DNA of 38,061 bases from positions 1 through 38,061 of the IMG/VR virus record IMGVR_UViG_3300027911_000034. One strand, given 5' to 3'. The translations under genes and the position numbers were made by a program. This document shows positions 7,512 to 25,327 of the stretch, piece by piece (position 1 is the first letter of the stretch; each line of letters opens with the position of its first letter). This DNA comes from a virus. Below the pieces are notes generated by a model. The model did not search any database. It saw only the letters and a program-made list of their open reading frames with translations, and was not told the origin of the DNA.

Positions 7512-9155
7512 CTATGCCGCCTTGGCCTCTTTGGCATGTTGTATGGCGTGCCAAAGCACCTTGATGACCAGCTCAGGCGGTATGTCCGCCTGACACTGCG
7601 CGATGCCCATGGGCAGACCGTCGGGGCCGTCCGCCTGCTTGCAGTGCTCCCAGCTGTAGTGCAACTGGTGACAGGCGGGCGCCTCATTCTTGCCGCGGCC
7701 GGGGCACTCGGTGACATCCGAGTACAGGACGTGCGTGTTGACCCAATCGCGCGTCAGGTTCTCATCCGTCGAGTGCGACAGAAACACGACCTTTGGTATG
7801 GGCAGCATGGAGGCCATGTTGAGCACGCCGGTCTCGGGCCCGATGATGAGATCGGCCTGCTCGCAAAATGCCATGGTCTCGCGGATGGACCACTCGCCGG
7901 ACGTGCACAGGACCCGCGGCTCGACCATGATCCGCCGGCCCACAATGTCGCGCAGCGGCTCGCCGTCGTGCGTCTTGAACCATCCCTGCTCAAGCAGGAT
8001 GCAGTCGGGCCCGCCGACAATGACAAACTGAATGTCGGGGTAGTCGACCAGCATGGTCGCGATGACGTTGTCCACCCACAGCCATTTTTTGTGCACCGCG
8101 GAGCCCGCCATGGACCACACCACCGTGAACCCGGGACGCTTGGCGCGCTCGGTCTTGGCCCATTCGCGCTCGGCATCAGTGGCGTAGAACTTGACGGCGG
8201 GCACGTGCGGGACGCCCGCGATCAAGTGTTGAAACTCGAGGTAGTTGATATCCATCATCCGGTGGCGCGCCGCGGGTGGCCACATATGCTGTGAGCGCCC
8301 CGGGATGGCCAGCAGGTTGCCCTCCGCGGACTCGGACAGGTTCACCCACTTGTCGAAGCGTTTCTCGTGGTAGGCCCAAAAGTCGCCCAGCGCGGTATTC
8401 GGGACTTGGTCCTTGTCCTGATAGTAGAACTCGTCAATGTTCGGATCGTGCAGGATGACGTCGGAGCCCGGCGCGGAGCAAAACACCGTGACGTGATAGC
8501 CCTGCTGCTTGAGGCCGGAAAACACGGAGGAGGCCTGCAGGACGTCGCCATACGCCCCATAACGCACCACGCCAGCCCGCTTGACGTTGGGCTTGGGTCG
8601 GCTCCACGAGTGAAGGTGACCGTCCTTGCGCTTCTGGAAGACGAAGTAGAGGCTGTATTCCGTGCCTTGGTCGCGCTTCTGGAAGTCGCGCAGGTCCCAA
8701 TGGCCGGCCTTCTCCATGACCTCAATGAGCACGTCGTAATTGACGTTCCACTTGTGGTCCCGGTTGGCGCCCTCCTCCCCGACCTTGGGGTAGAGGTCAT
8801 CCGCCGGCAGGTACAGGATGAGGTGCCCGCCGACCTTGATGACGCGCAGCCATTCCTTGAGCGCCTTGACGACCTTCGACTCCTCAATATGCTCGAGCAA
8901 GTGGCTCGAGAACACGAAGTCGAATTGGTCCGTGGCAAAAAGCCTGAGATCGGTGGCGTCGTCTATCCAGACATCGGGGCGAAACTGATGCCCAAATAGG
9001 GCAATGTCAGCGCCGTTGTCGAGTCCAATGAAATGCGGGAACGCCTTGTAGGCCCCGCAACCAATGTCGAGGCCTTTCCCCCGGGTCCACTTGACCAGCT
9101 CCCAGCGGATTTTTCCGGCTTCGTTCCCCTGTGGGTCCTCGCGCCGCCAGACCAC
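7512..9155 (-). CDS. Fusion: class I methyltransferase + GT9 ADP-heptose-type glycosyltransferase (547 aa)
   Basis: The N-terminal domain (about 1-175) is a Rossmann methyltransferase: SAM motif GLDIGCGAYKAFP at 28-40, SHLLEHI at 84-90 and GGHLILYLP at 109-117. The C-terminal domain (about 192-547) looks like glycosyltransferase family 9, the LPS heptosyltransferase family: RYGAYGDVLQASSVFSGLK at 198-216, SMAGSAVHKKWL near 348 and the donor-site motif IGPETGVLNMA at 438-448. A C-terminal Cys cluster (ECPGRG...PACHQ...EHCK...AQCQ) resembles that of many GT9 proteins. The GTG start is at 9155, just after the TAA of the preceding gene. It is embedded in the virion gene block, away from the gmhA-hldA-hldC cassette that could supply ADP-heptose. 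The acceptor is unknown: LPS core, capsid or DNA are all possible. Confidence 0.8.
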   Translation of the reverse strand: MVWRREDPQGNEAGKIRWELVKWTRGKGLDIGCGAYKAFPHFIGLDNGADIALFGHQFRPDVWIDDATDLRLFATDQFDFVFSSHLLEHIEESKVVKALKEWLRVIKVGGHLILYLPADDLYPKVGEEGANRDHKWNVNYDVLIEVMEKAGHWDLRDFQKRDQGTEYSLYFVFQKRKDGHLHSWSRPKPNVKRAGVVRYGAYGDVLQASSVFSGLKQQGYHVTVFCSAPGSDVILHDPNIDEFYYQDKDQVPNTALGDFWAYHEKRFDKWVNLSESAEGNLLAIPGRSQHMWPPAARHRMMDINYLEFQHLIAGVPHVPAVKFYATDAEREWAKTERAKRPGFTVVWSMAGSAVHKKWLWVDNVIATMLVDYPDIQFVIVGGPDCILLEQGWFKTHDGEPLRDIVGRRIMVEPRVLCTSGEWSIRETMAFCEQADLIIGPETGVLNMASMLPIPKVVFLSHSTDENLTRDWVNTHVLYSDVTECPGRGKNEAPACHQLHYSWEHCKQADGPDGLPMGIAQCQADIPPELVIKVLWHAIQHAKEAKAA

Positions 9156-11438: not shown

Positions 11439-12410
11439 CTAGGCGGCCGAGTCCCACTTGACAATACGCACGTTGATCGGGTTCGTGTGTACAATCCCGA
11501 ACCCACCGAGGTAGTACCAAGCAATTCCTTTCGACCGGCCGTAGTCGGTCGGGATCTTGCCGCGCATCTCCTCGGGCACCGCAATGGCCTCCGCCACCGT
11601 GTCGTTGCCAAAAAAGAACAACCAGTCCGACTGACCGTTGACCCACGGGGTCGTGGTCACGCCGTCCGTACCGGTACCCTTCGGTATATTGGTCTGCTCA
11701 ATATACCTTGTGTTTTCATAGCGCCCAATCTCACCGTTCATAATCAGGTTGAAGCCGGTATCGCTGTACTGGTGGATCGCCTCAAGGGCGTTCTTGAAGG
11801 TTCGCAGGGTCGTTGGCCATCCGAGACAGTAGTAGTCGTCAGCGATGTAGGCCGGGATGTTGCGCTCCTTCATCGCGTCCACGATCGCCTTCGCGTGGCC
11901 GTTGCTGAAAGCCACCGAATTGGTGCCGGTCACCGTGCCATTTGTATACAACGTGATCGACGTCGGGCTCGTGCCACCGGTCGGGATCACGCGGATTTGC
12001 GTCTGGTTGAACTGCGTCCACGCCGCGCGGTCGAGGTACTTCACGCAGTCATTCTTGCAGACCTTCTTGATGACGTCCTCGACGGGGAACTTCGACAGGT
12101 TGTCGAGCTTGCCCGAGTACGGCACCGAGTTACCGGCCTCGGTCACCGTGAGGGTGCCCTGCGTGATCGTGAAATTCGTCTCGGGCATCGTGTTGGTTTC
12201 GACCAACACTGCACCAGCCGTGGCGACGTCACTGAAGACATCCCACGTGAAAGTGTCTCCCTTCTTTTTTCCCTGCTGGGAAATATCATGAACATCGGCA
12301 AACTGCCGGAATTTCACGAGTGGCTGCACGTTTGCGCGCAGCACATTCGACAGCTGCCGGGAATACATGAAGCCGCCCAAACTCGAGACGGCCCAGACTT
12401 GACCTGCCAT
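11439..12410 (-). CDS. Major capsid protein (323 aa)
   Basis: Size, position after a scaffold-like gene and composition fit a major capsid protein. TEAGNSVPYSGKLDNLSKFP (about residues 90-109), followed by CVKYLDRAAWTQFNQTQIR, resembles the N4-gp56-like group of HK97-fold capsid proteins. The C-terminus has the usual beta strands (GIAWYYLGGFGIVHTNPINV). ATG at 12410 has a strong GGAGG site upstream and a leader hairpin at 12427-12451. It forms the icosahedral shell. The exact subfamily is uncertain without a profile search. Confidence 0.8.
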   Translation of the reverse strand: MAGQVWAVSSLGGFMYSRQLSNVLRANVQPLVKFRQFADVHDISQQGKKKGDTFTWDVFSDVATAGAVLVETNTMPETNFTITQGTLTVTEAGNSVPYSGKLDNLSKFPVEDVIKKVCKNDCVKYLDRAAWTQFNQTQIRVIPTGGTSPTSITLYTNGTVTGTNSVAFSNGHAKAIVDAMKERNIPAYIADDYYCLGWPTTLRTFKNALEAIHQYSDTGFNLIMNGEIGRYENTRYIEQTNIPKGTGTDGVTTTPWVNGQSDWLFFFGNDTVAEAIAVPEEMRGKIPTDYGRSKGIAWYYLGGFGIVHTNPINVRIVKWDSAA

Positions 12411-20472: not shown

Positions 20473-20660
20473 CAATAGCTCCCTTCAATGCCGGCCATGA
20501 ATGCCACATTCGCCTCTCGGTCACGCAGCTCCCTGACCTCGCCGGCCAGCCGCCTGACCTTGATGACCAGCTCCACCGGTAACGGCTCCTGCCTTGCTGC
20601 AATGCGATCGAGGCGCTGCAGCAGGCTGCGGATCTCGGTCTCGGTCAGGTCAAGCCTCAT
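20472..20660 (-). CDS. Small helical protein downstream of terminase (62 aa)
   Basis: Begins with ATG overlapping the TGA of the terminase large gene (ATGA). The sequence is Leu/Arg/Glu-rich and probably a coiled coil: EIRSLLQRLDRIAARQ and VRRLAGEVRELRDRE. It could be a packaging accessory or portal-associated peptide. The function is not recognised. Confidence 0.55.
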   Translation of the reverse strand: MRLDLTETEIRSLLQRLDRIAARQEPLPVELVIKVRRLAGEVRELRDREANVAFMAGIEGSY

Positions 20661-22294
20661 GTGTACTCGGGCTCCAACACGGTCGAGTCGATGAACTCAG
20701 GCGGACGCACGTCCATGTCGTAGATTCGCGAAACGGCGTCGATCAAGTCCTTAAGACCTGTGAACGGGTAGTAAGCCACCTGCATCCTAAACCGCTCGCT
20801 CAAATTGTAAAGTTGACCGTTCTCATCCCGCTGGATGATGGGTTTCGCTATGCGGTAGTCGTAGCCGGAGGCAATCATCCGCTGCTGCGACTCGGTGAAG
20901 TCGGGATCCTCGTCGGCGGGCTCGTAGGGCAGCCAAAAGGCATGGGAGCGGATGTCAGGCACAAGGCGGCTCACGCGGTCATCCTTGCTGCCCGGGCCGT
21001 CTGAGGGCCACTCAAGCTCCTCGATCTCGAGCCCGGAGACGTTCTCCACCCGGCGGCGCTCGAGGAAATAGTCCATATCGGCCTGCGCGCCGTACTTCTC
21101 GTAGCCGACCTTGACGCCCACCACGCCCGGCGCCACCCGCCACTTCTGCCAAAGCCCGCGCAGATGCGTCCAGCGCTCGAGCAGGTCCATGCGGTGATCG
21201 TAGCCGTCGAGCAGGAACTTGTTGCCATCGAACCCGACGCCAATGACCGCCATGGCCGTGCGCGCGGAGTCCTTTTTCTTGCTGCGGGCCGGGTCGATGG
21301 TGATGTAGACCATGAGGGTCTCGGGGCGCCACTCGTAGACCTGCAGGTCATTGGGATCGAACCAGCGCTGACTGCCTGCCAGCGGGTTTTGCAGCATTTG
21401 GGTGGCAATGGTCTCCTCGAGCTGCGTCTTGACCCGGCGGCGCCACTCGGCCTCGCTGAAAAGCACCGGGCGGCCCTCGACCGTACCGTCATGGGTCGCC
21501 GGGTAGATGCGCGCCTTGACGCTGCCGGTGGCCAATATCGAGGAGTAGGTATCGCCGTAGTGGTATCGCGTGCCGCACATTTGGCGCCTGCCACCCGCGG
21601 TACCAAGGTTGTCGGACATCGACCATGCTGCGGTGCACTTATGGATTTGCTCGGGGGTGGAGACCGACTCCATGGTGACGACGTCGTCATAGACCATCAG
21701 CTTGAAATGCCGGCTGGTCGGCTGGCCGTCGACTAGCCCGTGGGCCTCTACGGTGCATTCCTTGGGGTTGCTCGAGCGCTTGACTATCAGGCCCCCGTCC
21801 AGTGACCAGCTGGACGCCTCTGCCTGCGGGTTGGTCCACAGGATGTCCGGGAACAGGGCCTGCAAGTGGTGGTTGGTCTCCATCTCGCGCTTGAGCTGCG
21901 CAAGGAACGCCTTGGCGATCGGCTTGGTGTGGCTGAAGATCCCTACCGTGATTTCCGGGTCGCGCAGGATCTCCTGAAGGATGCCCGCGAAGGTAACGAC
22001 GCTGGATTTGTAGTGTTCCCTCGCCCATAAATCGAGGTAGCCATCGGGGGCGGCCTCGACCTCCCGGCAGCGCGCATAGATCCAGTGATGCCAGCAGTCC
22101 ACACGGCCACACGCCCGTACCAAGAGGTAGTAGCGGTCGTTTTGGCAGAGCCAGCGGGCGGCCTCGAGATTGTGACCTTTCTCGTCGAGCGCATCCCACG
22201 CCCCGAGGACATCACTGAACGCTAACGACTGAAGGGTCTGCCGGAGCCCGTCCAGCGAGTGCGGCTTCGAGTCGGGCACGCATGTCCTCGGCAT
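20657..22294 (-). CDS. terL: Terminase large subunit (545 aa)
   Basis: The ATPase domain has a Walker A-like segment AREHYKSSVVTF (residues 91-102, degenerate as in many phage terminases) and a Walker B, LMVYDDVVT, at 199-207. The nuclease domain begins with VYITIDPARSKKKDSARTAMAVIG, with the first catalytic Asp at about 334; later acidic residues lie in VKVGYEKYG and the DLIDAVSRIYDMD region near the C-terminus. ATG 22294 overlaps the small-subunit gene by 83 bp; no later start that would keep the ATPase domain is obvious. The enzyme drives packaging of the genome through the portal and cuts concatemers. Confidence 0.9.
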   Translation of the reverse strand: MPRTCVPDSKPHSLDGLRQTLQSLAFSDVLGAWDALDEKGHNLEAARWLCQNDRYYLLVRACGRVDCWHHWIYARCREVEAAPDGYLDLWAREHYKSSVVTFAGILQEILRDPEITVGIFSHTKPIAKAFLAQLKREMETNHHLQALFPDILWTNPQAEASSWSLDGGLIVKRSSNPKECTVEAHGLVDGQPTSRHFKLMVYDDVVTMESVSTPEQIHKCTAAWSMSDNLGTAGGRRQMCGTRYHYGDTYSSILATGSVKARIYPATHDGTVEGRPVLFSEAEWRRRVKTQLEETIATQMLQNPLAGSQRWFDPNDLQVYEWRPETLMVYITIDPARSKKKDSARTAMAVIGVGFDGNKFLLDGYDHRMDLLERWTHLRGLWQKWRVAPGVVGVKVGYEKYGAQADMDYFLERRRVENVSGLEIEELEWPSDGPGSKDDRVSRLVPDIRSHAFWLPYEPADEDPDFTESQQRMIASGYDYRIAKPIIQRDENGQLYNLSERFRMQVAYYPFTGLKDLIDAVSRIYDMDVRPPEFIDSTVLEPEYT

Positions 22295-22931: not shown

Positions 22932-23165
22932 TCACTCATCTCCGTGGTAGCCGCGACGCCCACTGTAGGCGCTGCGGGTGCCGTAAGTCCCTGATCCCTT
23001 TCGCAGATACAGCTCGAGCCGGTGCCCGATGTCCTTGTTCCTGCGGTGCAGGATGGTGCTGTCGAGGTCGTAATCCCCGGTGAGGTTCGGCGTCCGGCGC
23101 CACTCACGGGGCGCGCATTGGTGGCAATGACCGTGGTTGATTTTCAGCATGTCTCGGGCGCGCAT
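22932..23165 (-). CDS. Hypothetical basic protein (77 aa)
   Basis: The ATG at 23165 follows a GTG in the same frame, and the stop of the FnIII-like gene overlaps it (GTGATG). The sequence has one Cys pair with His residues (HGHCHQC at about 12-18), which may bind metal, followed by an Arg/Lys-rich segment. The C-terminus is Gly/Arg/Tyr-rich. No family was recognised. Confidence 0.5.
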   Translation of the reverse strand: MRARDMLKINHGHCHQCAPREWRRTPNLTGDYDLDSTILHRRNKDIGHRLELYLRKGSGTYGTRSAYSGRRGYHGDE

Positions 23166-23536
23166 CACTTCACCAGCGTGTTAGTGGGCGGGTTGGGCTT
23201 GGCGTGCGGGAAGGTCTTGCAGGCGACGGCCGAATAGGCCGATTCGCCGGCCAGCGGGGTGACTGCGGTCACCGCGTAGCAGGCTGTGCTGCCGGCCGTC
23301 AGGGCGGCTTGTGAGTCGGTGTAGGTGGTGCCGGTGAGGCCGGACGCCACCTGCGTCAGGATACCCGTGGCGGTCGTGCCGAAATACACGTTGTAGGTGA
23401 TGGCCTCGGTGATGGCCGTGCCGTCGGTGTACGTGGTGGGCGCCACCCAATTGAGCAGCGAGACGTTGGGCGACTGCGCCTTGACGCCAAAGAATGGGGC
23501 GAGGATGACTACGAGTGCGAGCATGGTGCGCTTCAT
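23165..23536 (-). CDS. Secreted FnIII-like protein (123 aa)
   Basis: The start at MKRTMLALVVILAPFFGVKAQS was chosen because its ATG overlaps the hldC-like TGA (ATGA). Residues 1-20 are a Sec signal peptide with an AQ cleavage region. The mature part has the W, Y and T pattern of a single fibronectin type III domain: LLNWVAPTTYTDGT, ITYNVYFG, then YTDSQAALTAGSTACYAVTAV and SAYSAVACKTF. Two Cys could form a disulfide in the periplasm. It is coupled to the heptose genes, so an envelope role such as a surface shield or superinfection factor is inferred. Which surface it binds is unknown. Confidence 0.65.
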   Translation of the reverse strand: MKRTMLALVVILAPFFGVKAQSPNVSLLNWVAPTTYTDGTAITEAITYNVYFGTTATGILTQVASGLTGTTYTDSQAALTAGSTACYAVTAVTPLAGESAYSAVACKTFPHAKPNPPTNTLVK

Positions 23537-23940
23537 GGCGTGGCCTCTTGGGCTAGCCGAGTGGTGGAGTAGCCGGCCAGTTCGGGCAGCTTGATGACCG
23601 GGACGCCGCAATACGTCTCGCCTTCTGTTGCCTGATCGTAGCCCCGAAAGTACACGGTCGGGCGCACGGCGGCAACTAACAGGCCCTCATCCCCTTCGAA
23701 GGGCATCAGGGACAGCGGGGCGCCGCCTTGGCGCAGGATGACCTTCCCCAGCTCATCGAGGTGCGCCAACCGGTGCGCCATGGTCCAGAAAGGCCGGTCG
23801 CGACCCTTCAGCGACTTGATGGACCTGTCCGAATTGACCGCCACCACGAGCCGGTCGCACTGCTGCGCGGCCAGCGTGAGCATGAACCGGTGCCCGTCAT
23901 GCAAGAGGTCGTAGCAGCCATTGGTCATGCCGAGAATCAT
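23533..23940 (-). CDS. hldC: HldC-like heptose-1-phosphate adenylyltransferase (135 aa)
   Basis: A nucleotidyltransferase of the cytidylyltransferase fold: NGCYDLLHDGH at residues 7-17 holds the HxGH signature. VNSDRSIKSLKGRDRP at 35-50 is characteristic of the second half of HldE/RfaE, and the C-terminal VIKLPELAGYSTT matches the same domain. It is expected to convert D-glycero-beta-D-manno-heptose 1-phosphate plus ATP to ADP-heptose. ATG 23940 overlaps the TGA of the kinase gene (ATGA). In many Gram-negatives this domain is fused to the kinase; here the two are separate genes, as in organisms with hldA and hldC. Confidence 0.85.
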   Translation of the reverse strand: MILGMTNGCYDLLHDGHRFMLTLAAQQCDRLVVAVNSDRSIKSLKGRDRPFWTMAHRLAHLDELGKVILRQGGAPLSLMPFEGDEGLLVAAVRPTVYFRGYDQATEGETYCGVPVIKLPELAGYSTTRLAQEATP

Positions 23941-24755
23941 GAGGCCAGCCCCTTGAGTGTTGCTGCGGTGCACGCAGAGGTACCCACCTCGCCCACTACG
24001 AAGCCTGACGACAGGATCGCCAATTGCACGGCCTGATCGAGCGGGGCGTCCACTGACATGGCGGCGGCCATGGTGGCCACGAAGGTATCGCCCGCCCCGG
24101 TGACGTCGTAGACGTGCTGCGCCTTAGCGGGATAGTGGACGCCACCCATCATGGCGCCTTTTTCGCCCTGCTTGACCACAAGGGTGGGGCCTAGCCTTTG
24201 CCATCCGCTCAGGATGGATTCCATATCCTCACTGTGTTTGCGCCACGCCGCATATTCGTCCGCATTCGGGCAAATCACATTCGCCCATCGGTATCTACCC
24301 CATTCCGCGCCTTTGGGGTCCACCACAGTCGGAATGCGGGACGACTGGCATTTCCTGATAATTTCCCTGACAAACCAGCTAGTTAGCCAGCCCTTGGCGT
24401 AGTCGCTGAAGACCACGGCGTCGATACCCTCGAGGGTTGGCAAATCCTCCTCTTTGGGGGATTGGTGCACGTCATAGTCCGCCCGGAACAATTGGTGCCG
24501 GCCCACCATGAACCGACGCTTGACCGTCCACGGCTTGGGCGGGAAACACTGCACGGGCCTGCAGCCGAACGCGGCGAGATTCTGGCAGACGTTGTAGGCG
24601 AGCCCGGGCCGGTCCTCGAGGCGCTCCTCGACAAACACGGGGACCGGCGCCTCCGGGCTCAGCCGGTCCACCCGCCCGTGGTGGTAGACATCGAAACCCG
24701 GGTCACCGACCACGAGAATGCGCTTGCCCTGCCATTGGTCAACAAGCTCTTTCAC
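23937..24755 (-). CDS. hldA: HldA-like heptose-7-phosphate kinase (272 aa)
   Basis: A PfkB/ribokinase-fold sugar kinase. The N-terminus has VVGDPGFDVYHHGRVDRLSPEAP and then ERLEDRPGLAYNVCQNLAAFG, the HldE kinase-domain pattern. VFSDYAKGWLT (about 115-125) and VVDPKGAEWG follow. The catalytic loop is VTGAGDTF at 218-225, with the base Asp at 223. It is expected to phosphorylate D-glycero-D-manno-heptose 7-phosphate to the 1,7-bisphosphate. The GTG start at 24755 overlaps the TGA of gmhA (GTGA). It is somewhat shorter than host HldE kinase domains (about 318 aa). Confidence 0.85.
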   Translation of the reverse strand: MKELVDQWQGKRILVVGDPGFDVYHHGRVDRLSPEAPVPVFVEERLEDRPGLAYNVCQNLAAFGCRPVQCFPPKPWTVKRRFMVGRHQLFRADYDVHQSPKEEDLPTLEGIDAVVFSDYAKGWLTSWFVREIIRKCQSSRIPTVVDPKGAEWGRYRWANVICPNADEYAAWRKHSEDMESILSGWQRLGPTLVVKQGEKGAMMGGVHYPAKAQHVYDVTGAGDTFVATMAAAMSVDAPLDQAVQLAILSSGFVVGEVGTSACTAATLKGLAS

Positions 24756-25327
24756 GCGGGTATCCCCCGCTCGATCCCCTCGACCAGAAGGTGAGTGATG
24801 AGGAGGTGCATTTCCTGTATCCGGGCCGTGACCTGACTCGGGACACGCAGCTCGACGTCCGCGGACTGCGCGAACCCGCGCTCCCCGGTGATGCCGAGCG
24901 TCGTCATGCCTTTCTTGCGGGCCGCGGCCAGTGCATTCAGCACAACCACGGACCGCCCGGACGTGCTGTAAGCCACGAGACAGTCGCCGGGGTGGGCGAG
25001 AGCCTCTATCTGCCGGCTGTACGCCTGCGGCCATCCTAGGTCGTTTGCGGCGGCCGACAGGATGGCCCCGTCGGAAGTCAGCGCCACAGCCGCCAGCGCC
25101 CGACGGTCAGTCGCATAGCGCACCTGAAGCTCGGCAACGAAATGACTAGCCTGAGCCGCGGAGCCACCGCAACCACACACCAGCAATTTACCGCCCTCAG
25201 CCAACGCCTTGAGGAGCATGGAGACCGCCGGCTCATACTCGAGATCGAGCGCCTTCGACAGCTCCGTGAGGATCCTGCCGTGCTCCACGCACGCCTTGTG
25301 CGTGAGGACAAATGTGGGTTCCTTCAT
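24752..25327 (-). CDS. gmhA: GmhA sedoheptulose-7-phosphate isomerase (191 aa)
   Basis: A SIS-domain isomerase. CGCGGSAAQASHFVAELQVRY (residues 51-71; key residues H62 and E66) and STSGRS at 121-126 match GmhA. RIQEMHLLITH near the C-terminus holds the equivalents of the zinc and catalytic residues (Q171, H179). It should convert sedoheptulose 7-phosphate to D-glycero-D-manno-heptose 7-phosphate, the first step to ADP-heptose. ATG 25327 overlaps the stop of a membrane microgene (ATGA). The size matches E. coli GmhA (192 aa). Key residues are intact, so activity is likely. Confidence 0.88.
   Translation of the reverse strand: MKEPTFVLTHKACVEHGRILTELSKALDLEYEPAVSMLLKALAEGGKLLVCGCGGSAAQASHFVAELQVRYATDRRALAAVALTSDGAILSAAANDLGWPQAYSRQIEALAHPGDCLVAYSTSGRSVVVLNALAAARKKGMTTLGITGERGFAQSADVELRVPSQVTARIQEMHLLITHLLVEGIERGIPA

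Follow-up and report, generated by a model that had tools for sequence, protein, structure and literature searches.

Heptose genes carried by phages are usually classed as generic helpers of lipopolysaccharide (LPS) synthesis, with no named target for the sugar. Such genes are already known in cyanophages and pelagiphages (S-CAM3, S-T4, P-TIM68 and SynMITS9220M01, and the rfaE gene of pelagimyophages), in which, as at the locus described here, a phage-borne short HldA adjoins HldC. The carriers in these cases are large T4-like phages, unlike the present one, and in the three cyanophage loci that were read a SIS-type GmhA was not detected, a cupin and a small HAD protein being present instead; in S-CAM3 there is also an annotated HldD, again unlike the locus described here.

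The ADP-heptose pathway of E. coli (GmhA-HldE-GmhB-HldD, with the transferases WaaC/WaaF) draws on the same enzyme families and presumed intermediates as the window, by which is meant the whole stretch of DNA analysed, an IMG/VR virus record of 38,061 bases. Unlike E. coli, however, the window has separate HldA and HldC proteins and neither GmhB nor HldD, and its glycosyltransferase (GT) domain, which has a fold in common with WaaC/WaaF, is fused to a methyltransferase and encoded among virion genes. The bacterial autotransporter heptosyltransferases TibC and AAH have a GT9 fold, a catalytic-base Asp, a Lys and four conserved Cys near the C-terminus, as does the window protein. The identity between TibC and the window GT domain is ~13%, and where TibC and AAH carry an N-terminal beta-barrel the window protein has its methyltransferase domain; the fusion protein is not classed as a BAHT (TibC-type protein heptosyltransferase), a type marked by that barrel and by a dodecamer.

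The heptose cassette and its surroundings

The features of the window that bear on the cassette are as follows.

24752..25327, minus strand: gmhA-like gene (sedoheptulose-7-phosphate isomerase, SIS domain), ATG start, 191 aa
23937..24755, minus strand: hldA-like gene (heptose-7-phosphate kinase, PfkB), shortened phage form, GTG start, 272 aa
23533..23940, minus strand: hldC-like gene (heptose-1-phosphate adenylyltransferase), ATG start, 135 aa
23165..23536, minus strand: gene for a possibly FN3-like protein of 123 aa that likely carries a signal peptide; 4-nt overlap with hldC
20657..22279, minus strand: terminase large subunit (phrog_38, E 2.7e-39)
11439..12410, minus strand: major head protein (phrog_1357, E 5.5e-19)

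The preliminary description had correctly placed three overlapping genes at 23533-25327. They run gmhA, hldA, hldC on the minus strand (25327→23533) with a 4-nt start/stop overlap at each junction, and are predicted from this arrangement to be translationally coupled. The start/stop coupling continues past hldC into the gene at 23536..23165, for whose product a Pfam search returned only sub-threshold matches and no homologue was found in the related loci checked. The cassette lies upstream of the terminase gene both in the window and in its relatives, where terminase homologues are close to the heptose genes. Elsewhere in the window, at 34899-36221 (minus strand), the gene for an ATP-grasp GARS-like protein is coupled to a second one (36218-37897, minus strand), whose product has a zeta-toxin-like kinase domain. 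This pair (34899-37897) sits within a block of virion-type genes, and both proteins have homologues in the relatives, the GARS-like one in Paraburkholderia prophages as well.

Identity of the three proteins

For each of the three proteins a heptose family is the top curated family. The isomerase matches TIGR00441 gmhA best (E 1.5e-47, 161.5 bits, with DiaA next at 118.7 bits), contains a SIS domain (PF13580, 87 bits) and has phosphoheptose isomerases as its top solved relatives (1tk9, E 1e-40). The kinase matches TIGR02198, domain I of rfaE, at E 9.9e-60 and 202.3 bits, as against 44.9 bits for ribokinase, while the adenylyltransferase matches TIGR02199, domain II of rfaE, at E 1.9e-21 and 76.4 bits, the next specific family being pantetheine-phosphate adenylyltransferase at 26.9 bits. 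The scores nevertheless lie below the NCBIfam equivalog cut-offs in all three cases (161.5 versus 209.45 bits, 202 versus 345 bits and 76 versus 181.5 bits, respectively), hence the names GmhA-like, HldA-like and HldC-like; the GmhA copies of related phages likewise fall below the cut-off.

The catalytic residues named in the preliminary description are present. In the GmhA-like protein, H62, E66, Q171 and H179 are invariant in eight phage homologues and, by alignment, common to E. coli GmhA; in the HldA-like protein the GAGD motif occupies 220-223; and the HldC-like protein has the HxGH (H14-D-G-H17), RP and STT motifs. There are departures too, in that the GmhA-like protein reads CGCGGS (N53 to C) where its relatives and E. 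coli have CGNGGS, and the HldA-like protein reads GLAYNV in place of the GGAANV of its relatives and is missing ~30 aa after residue 65, a shortening common to its nearest phage relatives and cyanophage HldA. A high-confidence AlphaFold2 model of the HldA-like protein (pLDDT 92.8) has B. cenocepacia HldA (4e84) as its top fold match, at Z 31.1 and 37% identity, with ribokinase-type structures next at Z 25.5. The enzyme identities first proposed thus hold, the family search having placed no non-heptose family closer than TIGR00441, TIGR02198 or TIGR02199, and the reading of the cassette as a heptose pathway is supported at the family level.

Completeness of the pathway

Among 19 cassette-bearing phage records GmhA is present in 13 and GmhB, one of two steps that the cassette otherwise lacks, in six (the L094 copy has an NCBIfam E of 4.8e-40), and HldD was not found in any of them. 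In five loci (L093-L097; records G035, G036, G037, G038 and G041) the order is hldA-gmhA-hldC-gmhB, and the cassette is near a DNA hypermodification set. GmhB was not found in the window, as the preliminary description had it; the six records that have it are relatives. The same description held that HldD was missing and would be supplied by the host: the absence extends to all 19 records, but such a supply need not be invoked, since TibC-type protein heptosyltransferases use ADP-D,D-heptose directly (PMC4358343). By analogy, the cassette would fit a product ADP-D,D-heptose that is used directly, as it is by TibC; a contribution from host HldD is possible.

A methyltransferase fused to a GT9-fold domain among the virion genes

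The likely user of this product is encoded in the same genome.

7512..9155, minus strand: SAM methyltransferase (~1-175) fused to a GT9 heptosyltransferase-fold domain (~190-547), 547 aa, assigned by Pfam and fold

This gene (9155..7512) lies between head and tail genes, within the virion-gene block. The N-terminus of its product matches Methyltransf_11 (E 7e-9) and has a methyltransferase fold in the model. The window GT domain itself had no PF01075 match, nor any other Pfam match above noise, and two homologues from relatives match PF01075 Glyco_transf_9 at E 3e-4 and 1e-3, their 20.6 and 18.8 bits being under the cut-off of 22. In the AlphaFold2 model (pLDDT 91) residues 190-541 match the GT9 structures 3tov (Z 24.5), E. 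coli WaaF 1psw (23.4), TibC (20.8) and WaaC (20.1) over 263-291 residues, such that the domain is predicted to have a GT-B fold of the WaaC/WaaF type. The domain boundary of the fusion is confirmed by the relatives, some of which encode methyltransferase and GT in two distinct genes and others of which carry a second copy of the GT gene; in L054, L056, L059 and L060 two GT9-like copies flank a separate methyltransferase gene.

Profile alignment with E. coli WaaF/WaaC places D204 at the catalytic-base Asp (WaaF D13), K356-x-W358 at the K-x-W motif with its donor-binding Lys (WaaF K195), and E441-T442-G443 at D-S-G, the (D/E)-x-G loop. Across 24 homologues each of these, together with four cysteines (C484/C495/C505/C521), is fully or almost fully conserved. 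The spacing of the cysteines in L055-type homologues (C-x2-C-x9-C-x11-C) resembles that of TibC (C-x2-C-x15-C-x11-C), in which C339/C342/C358/C370 form an iron finger (PMC4358343); the resemblance is one of sequence spacing in some homologues.

The transferase is core and the heptose genes are accessory

With the major head protein as a marker by which the phage family can be traced independently of heptose genes, the methyltransferase-GT gene was found in all 39 family loci that extend at least 6.5 kb past the head-protein gene, the prophage loci among these having been found through the methyltransferase-GT gene itself. The fusion gene belongs to the core of the family. The heptose genes are accessory: 9 of the 15 family records with a length of 30 kb or more encode HldA (6 of 12 with near-identical records merged) and the other six do not. 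These records, all of them possibly fragments, were collected by means of the transferase or the head protein, without using the heptose genes.

By comparison, the window HldA has matches in 35 of 50,697 isolated-phage records, almost all of them cyanophage or marine, and the GT9-methyltransferase fusion was not found in isolated phages. Scanning viral contigs with the window HldA as a lone query yielded no relatives; these were recovered with an alignment query. Relatives were also present in 28 genome contigs, in most of which the portal and head-protein genes of the phage family can be recognised, the genomes including those of Paraburkholderia sp. C35, P. rhynchosiae, Aromatoleum anaerobium and Pseudothauera rhizosphaerae. 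A full host HldA is encoded in 10 of the 12 tested bacterial genomes with transferase-bearing prophages, and phages with no cassette could therefore use host ADP-heptose.

Cassettes of unrelated layout place the kinase gene next to or near the GT gene. In L107 the GT gene is followed directly by hldA, in L144 and L145 the GT gene overlaps a fused hldE, in L152 it is followed by hldE with one gene between, and in L106 hldA and hldC are near it. In a maximum-likelihood tree of HldA the GT-bearing phages fall in four places, namely the clade of the window (support 100/97), a clade with adjoining gmhB (100/99), a clade of fused HldE (100/99) and, for L105/L107, a position among Burkholderiales-like sequences. 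Since the backbone between the four groups has only moderate support, the tree argues for at least three, and probably four, separate acquisitions of HldA by transferase-bearing phages. Phages with one transferase have gained HldA repeatedly, and this is the chief reason to think that the heptose product is used by the transferase.

A cupin as candidate replacement of GmhA

Phages that have hldA without a SIS-type GmhA often have a cupin of ~110 aa adjoining hldA, as at the following positions and in ~50 other hldA contigs.

L092:4757-5080: cupin beside hldA
L106:6626-6952: cupin beside hldA
L329:3930-4253: cupin beside hldA
L330:5242-5589: cupin beside hldA

Across 78 HldA clusters (80% identity), 13 have GmhA, 50 have the cupin, none has both and 15 have neither (Fisher p 1.7e-7); the window locus (L001) was scored as GmhA-less in this count, and counting its GmhA shifts one cluster out of the group with neither gene into that with GmhA, which does not weaken the exclusivity. 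Within the HldA clade of the window all 11 members have either GmhA or the cupin, never both. Among the isolated phages, 11 of 14 cupin matches are in Synechococcus phages, and all 10 cupin-bearing phages among the records listed are cyanophage or marine. The pattern, which outside the window clade is partly confounded with phylogeny, suggests a non-orthologous replacement, and the cupin is a candidate replacement sedoheptulose-7-phosphate isomerase. No paper linking a cupin to heptose synthesis was found in a search of the literature.

A gene annotated as 'phosphoheptose isomerase 1' in cyanophages was considered as a GmhA and rejected, the genes read encoding small HAD-like proteins with no SIS match.

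L002:8710-9030 (S-CAM3): short HAD-like protein annotated 'phosphoheptose isomerase', no SIS domain
L003:9275-9613 (P-TIM68): short HAD-like protein annotated 'phosphoheptose isomerase', no SIS domain
L004:9572-9919 (S-T4): short HAD-like protein annotated 'phosphoheptose isomerase', no SIS domain

These cyanophage genes are possibly misannotated, and their products are perhaps phosphatases that stand in place of GmhB.

Proposed function and alternatives

A heptose cassette and a heptosyltransferase-family gene in one virus make it possible that the phage does its own sugar tagging, beyond feeding that of its host. The GmhA-like, HldA-like and HldC-like proteins would yield ADP-heptose, likely ADP-D,D-heptose; this nucleotide would pass to the GT9-fold transferase fused to the methyltransferase; and the fusion protein would heptosylate, and perhaps O-methylate, an acceptor. 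In other words, the genome would encode a heptosylation system in which the cassette feeds the phage's own transferase, acting on, for example, a virion protein or a molecule of the host surface, a reading to which we give a probability of roughly 0.6. What is observed is the gene order, the family and fold assignments, the conservation of motifs and the recurring co-occurrence and adjacency of heptose and transferase genes; from these we infer the enzymatic activity, the donor sugar, the acceptor and the benefit. As counterpoints, the GT9 fold leaves the donor sugar unfixed, and N53C in GmhA and GLAYNV in HldA deviate at otherwise conserved positions.

The preliminary description had the phage boost or redirect the heptose-nucleotide supply of its host, and so overlooked the GT9-fold enzyme in the same genome, which, being core to the phage family, is the likelier consumer of ADP-heptose. 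A plain auxiliary role, in which the cassette does no more than raise or restore the ADP-heptose of the host for the LPS inner core, be it for envelope upkeep or for an altered receptor or superinfection exclusion, with the GT9-like protein using a different sugar, is a less likely alternative, if one with precedent: an LPS-related auxiliary role is the prevailing view of the heptose genes of cyanophages and pelagimyophages (PMC7378029, PMC7029224), and the prophage hosts are mostly Gram-negatives with an HldA of their own. It would leave unexplained, however, why HldA or fused HldE has been gained recurrently by phages with a GT9-fold gene, and why the two are at times directly adjacent.

That the three proteins are diverged enzymes for another sugar phosphate, such as a DiaA-like SIS protein and a ribokinase-like PfkB kinase, is improbable. 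The sub-cut-off scores, the shortened HldA and the unusual residues of GmhA and HldA would all be in keeping with such divergence, whereas the margins in favour of the heptose families are wide (161 versus 119 bits for DiaA, 202 versus 45 for ribokinase, and 76 versus 27), HldA is also the top fold, the three genes co-occur, and GmhB joins them in relatives. Less probable still is a role for heptose as the donor in DNA hypermodification: the cassettes of G035-G038 and G041 are near genes for a TET-associated glycosyltransferase (TAGT), an hmdU DNA kinase and thymidylate-synthase-like proteins, yet TAGT and hmdU-kinase genes are absent from the window and from the other 13 cassette-bearing records.

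Implications for the phage family

The proposed heptosylation system may be drawn more specifically, if only tentatively, as a conserved heptosyltransferase-methyltransferase that adds methylated D,D-heptose to virion proteins or another acceptor of the phage's choosing, with some members of the family bringing the donor pathway along, either with GmhA or with the cupin in its place as a hitherto unrecognised sedoheptulose-7-phosphate isomerase. In this regard, the exclusivity of GmhA and cupin points to an unrecognised isomerase in the heptose cassettes of cyanophages. With a candidate end-user enzyme in the same genome, core to a family that has prophages in cultured Paraburkholderia, Aromatoleum and Pseudothauera, it becomes possible to test what phage ADP-heptose is for. 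Should the acceptor be the virion, bacterial protein O-heptosylation would have a counterpart in a prokaryotic virus.
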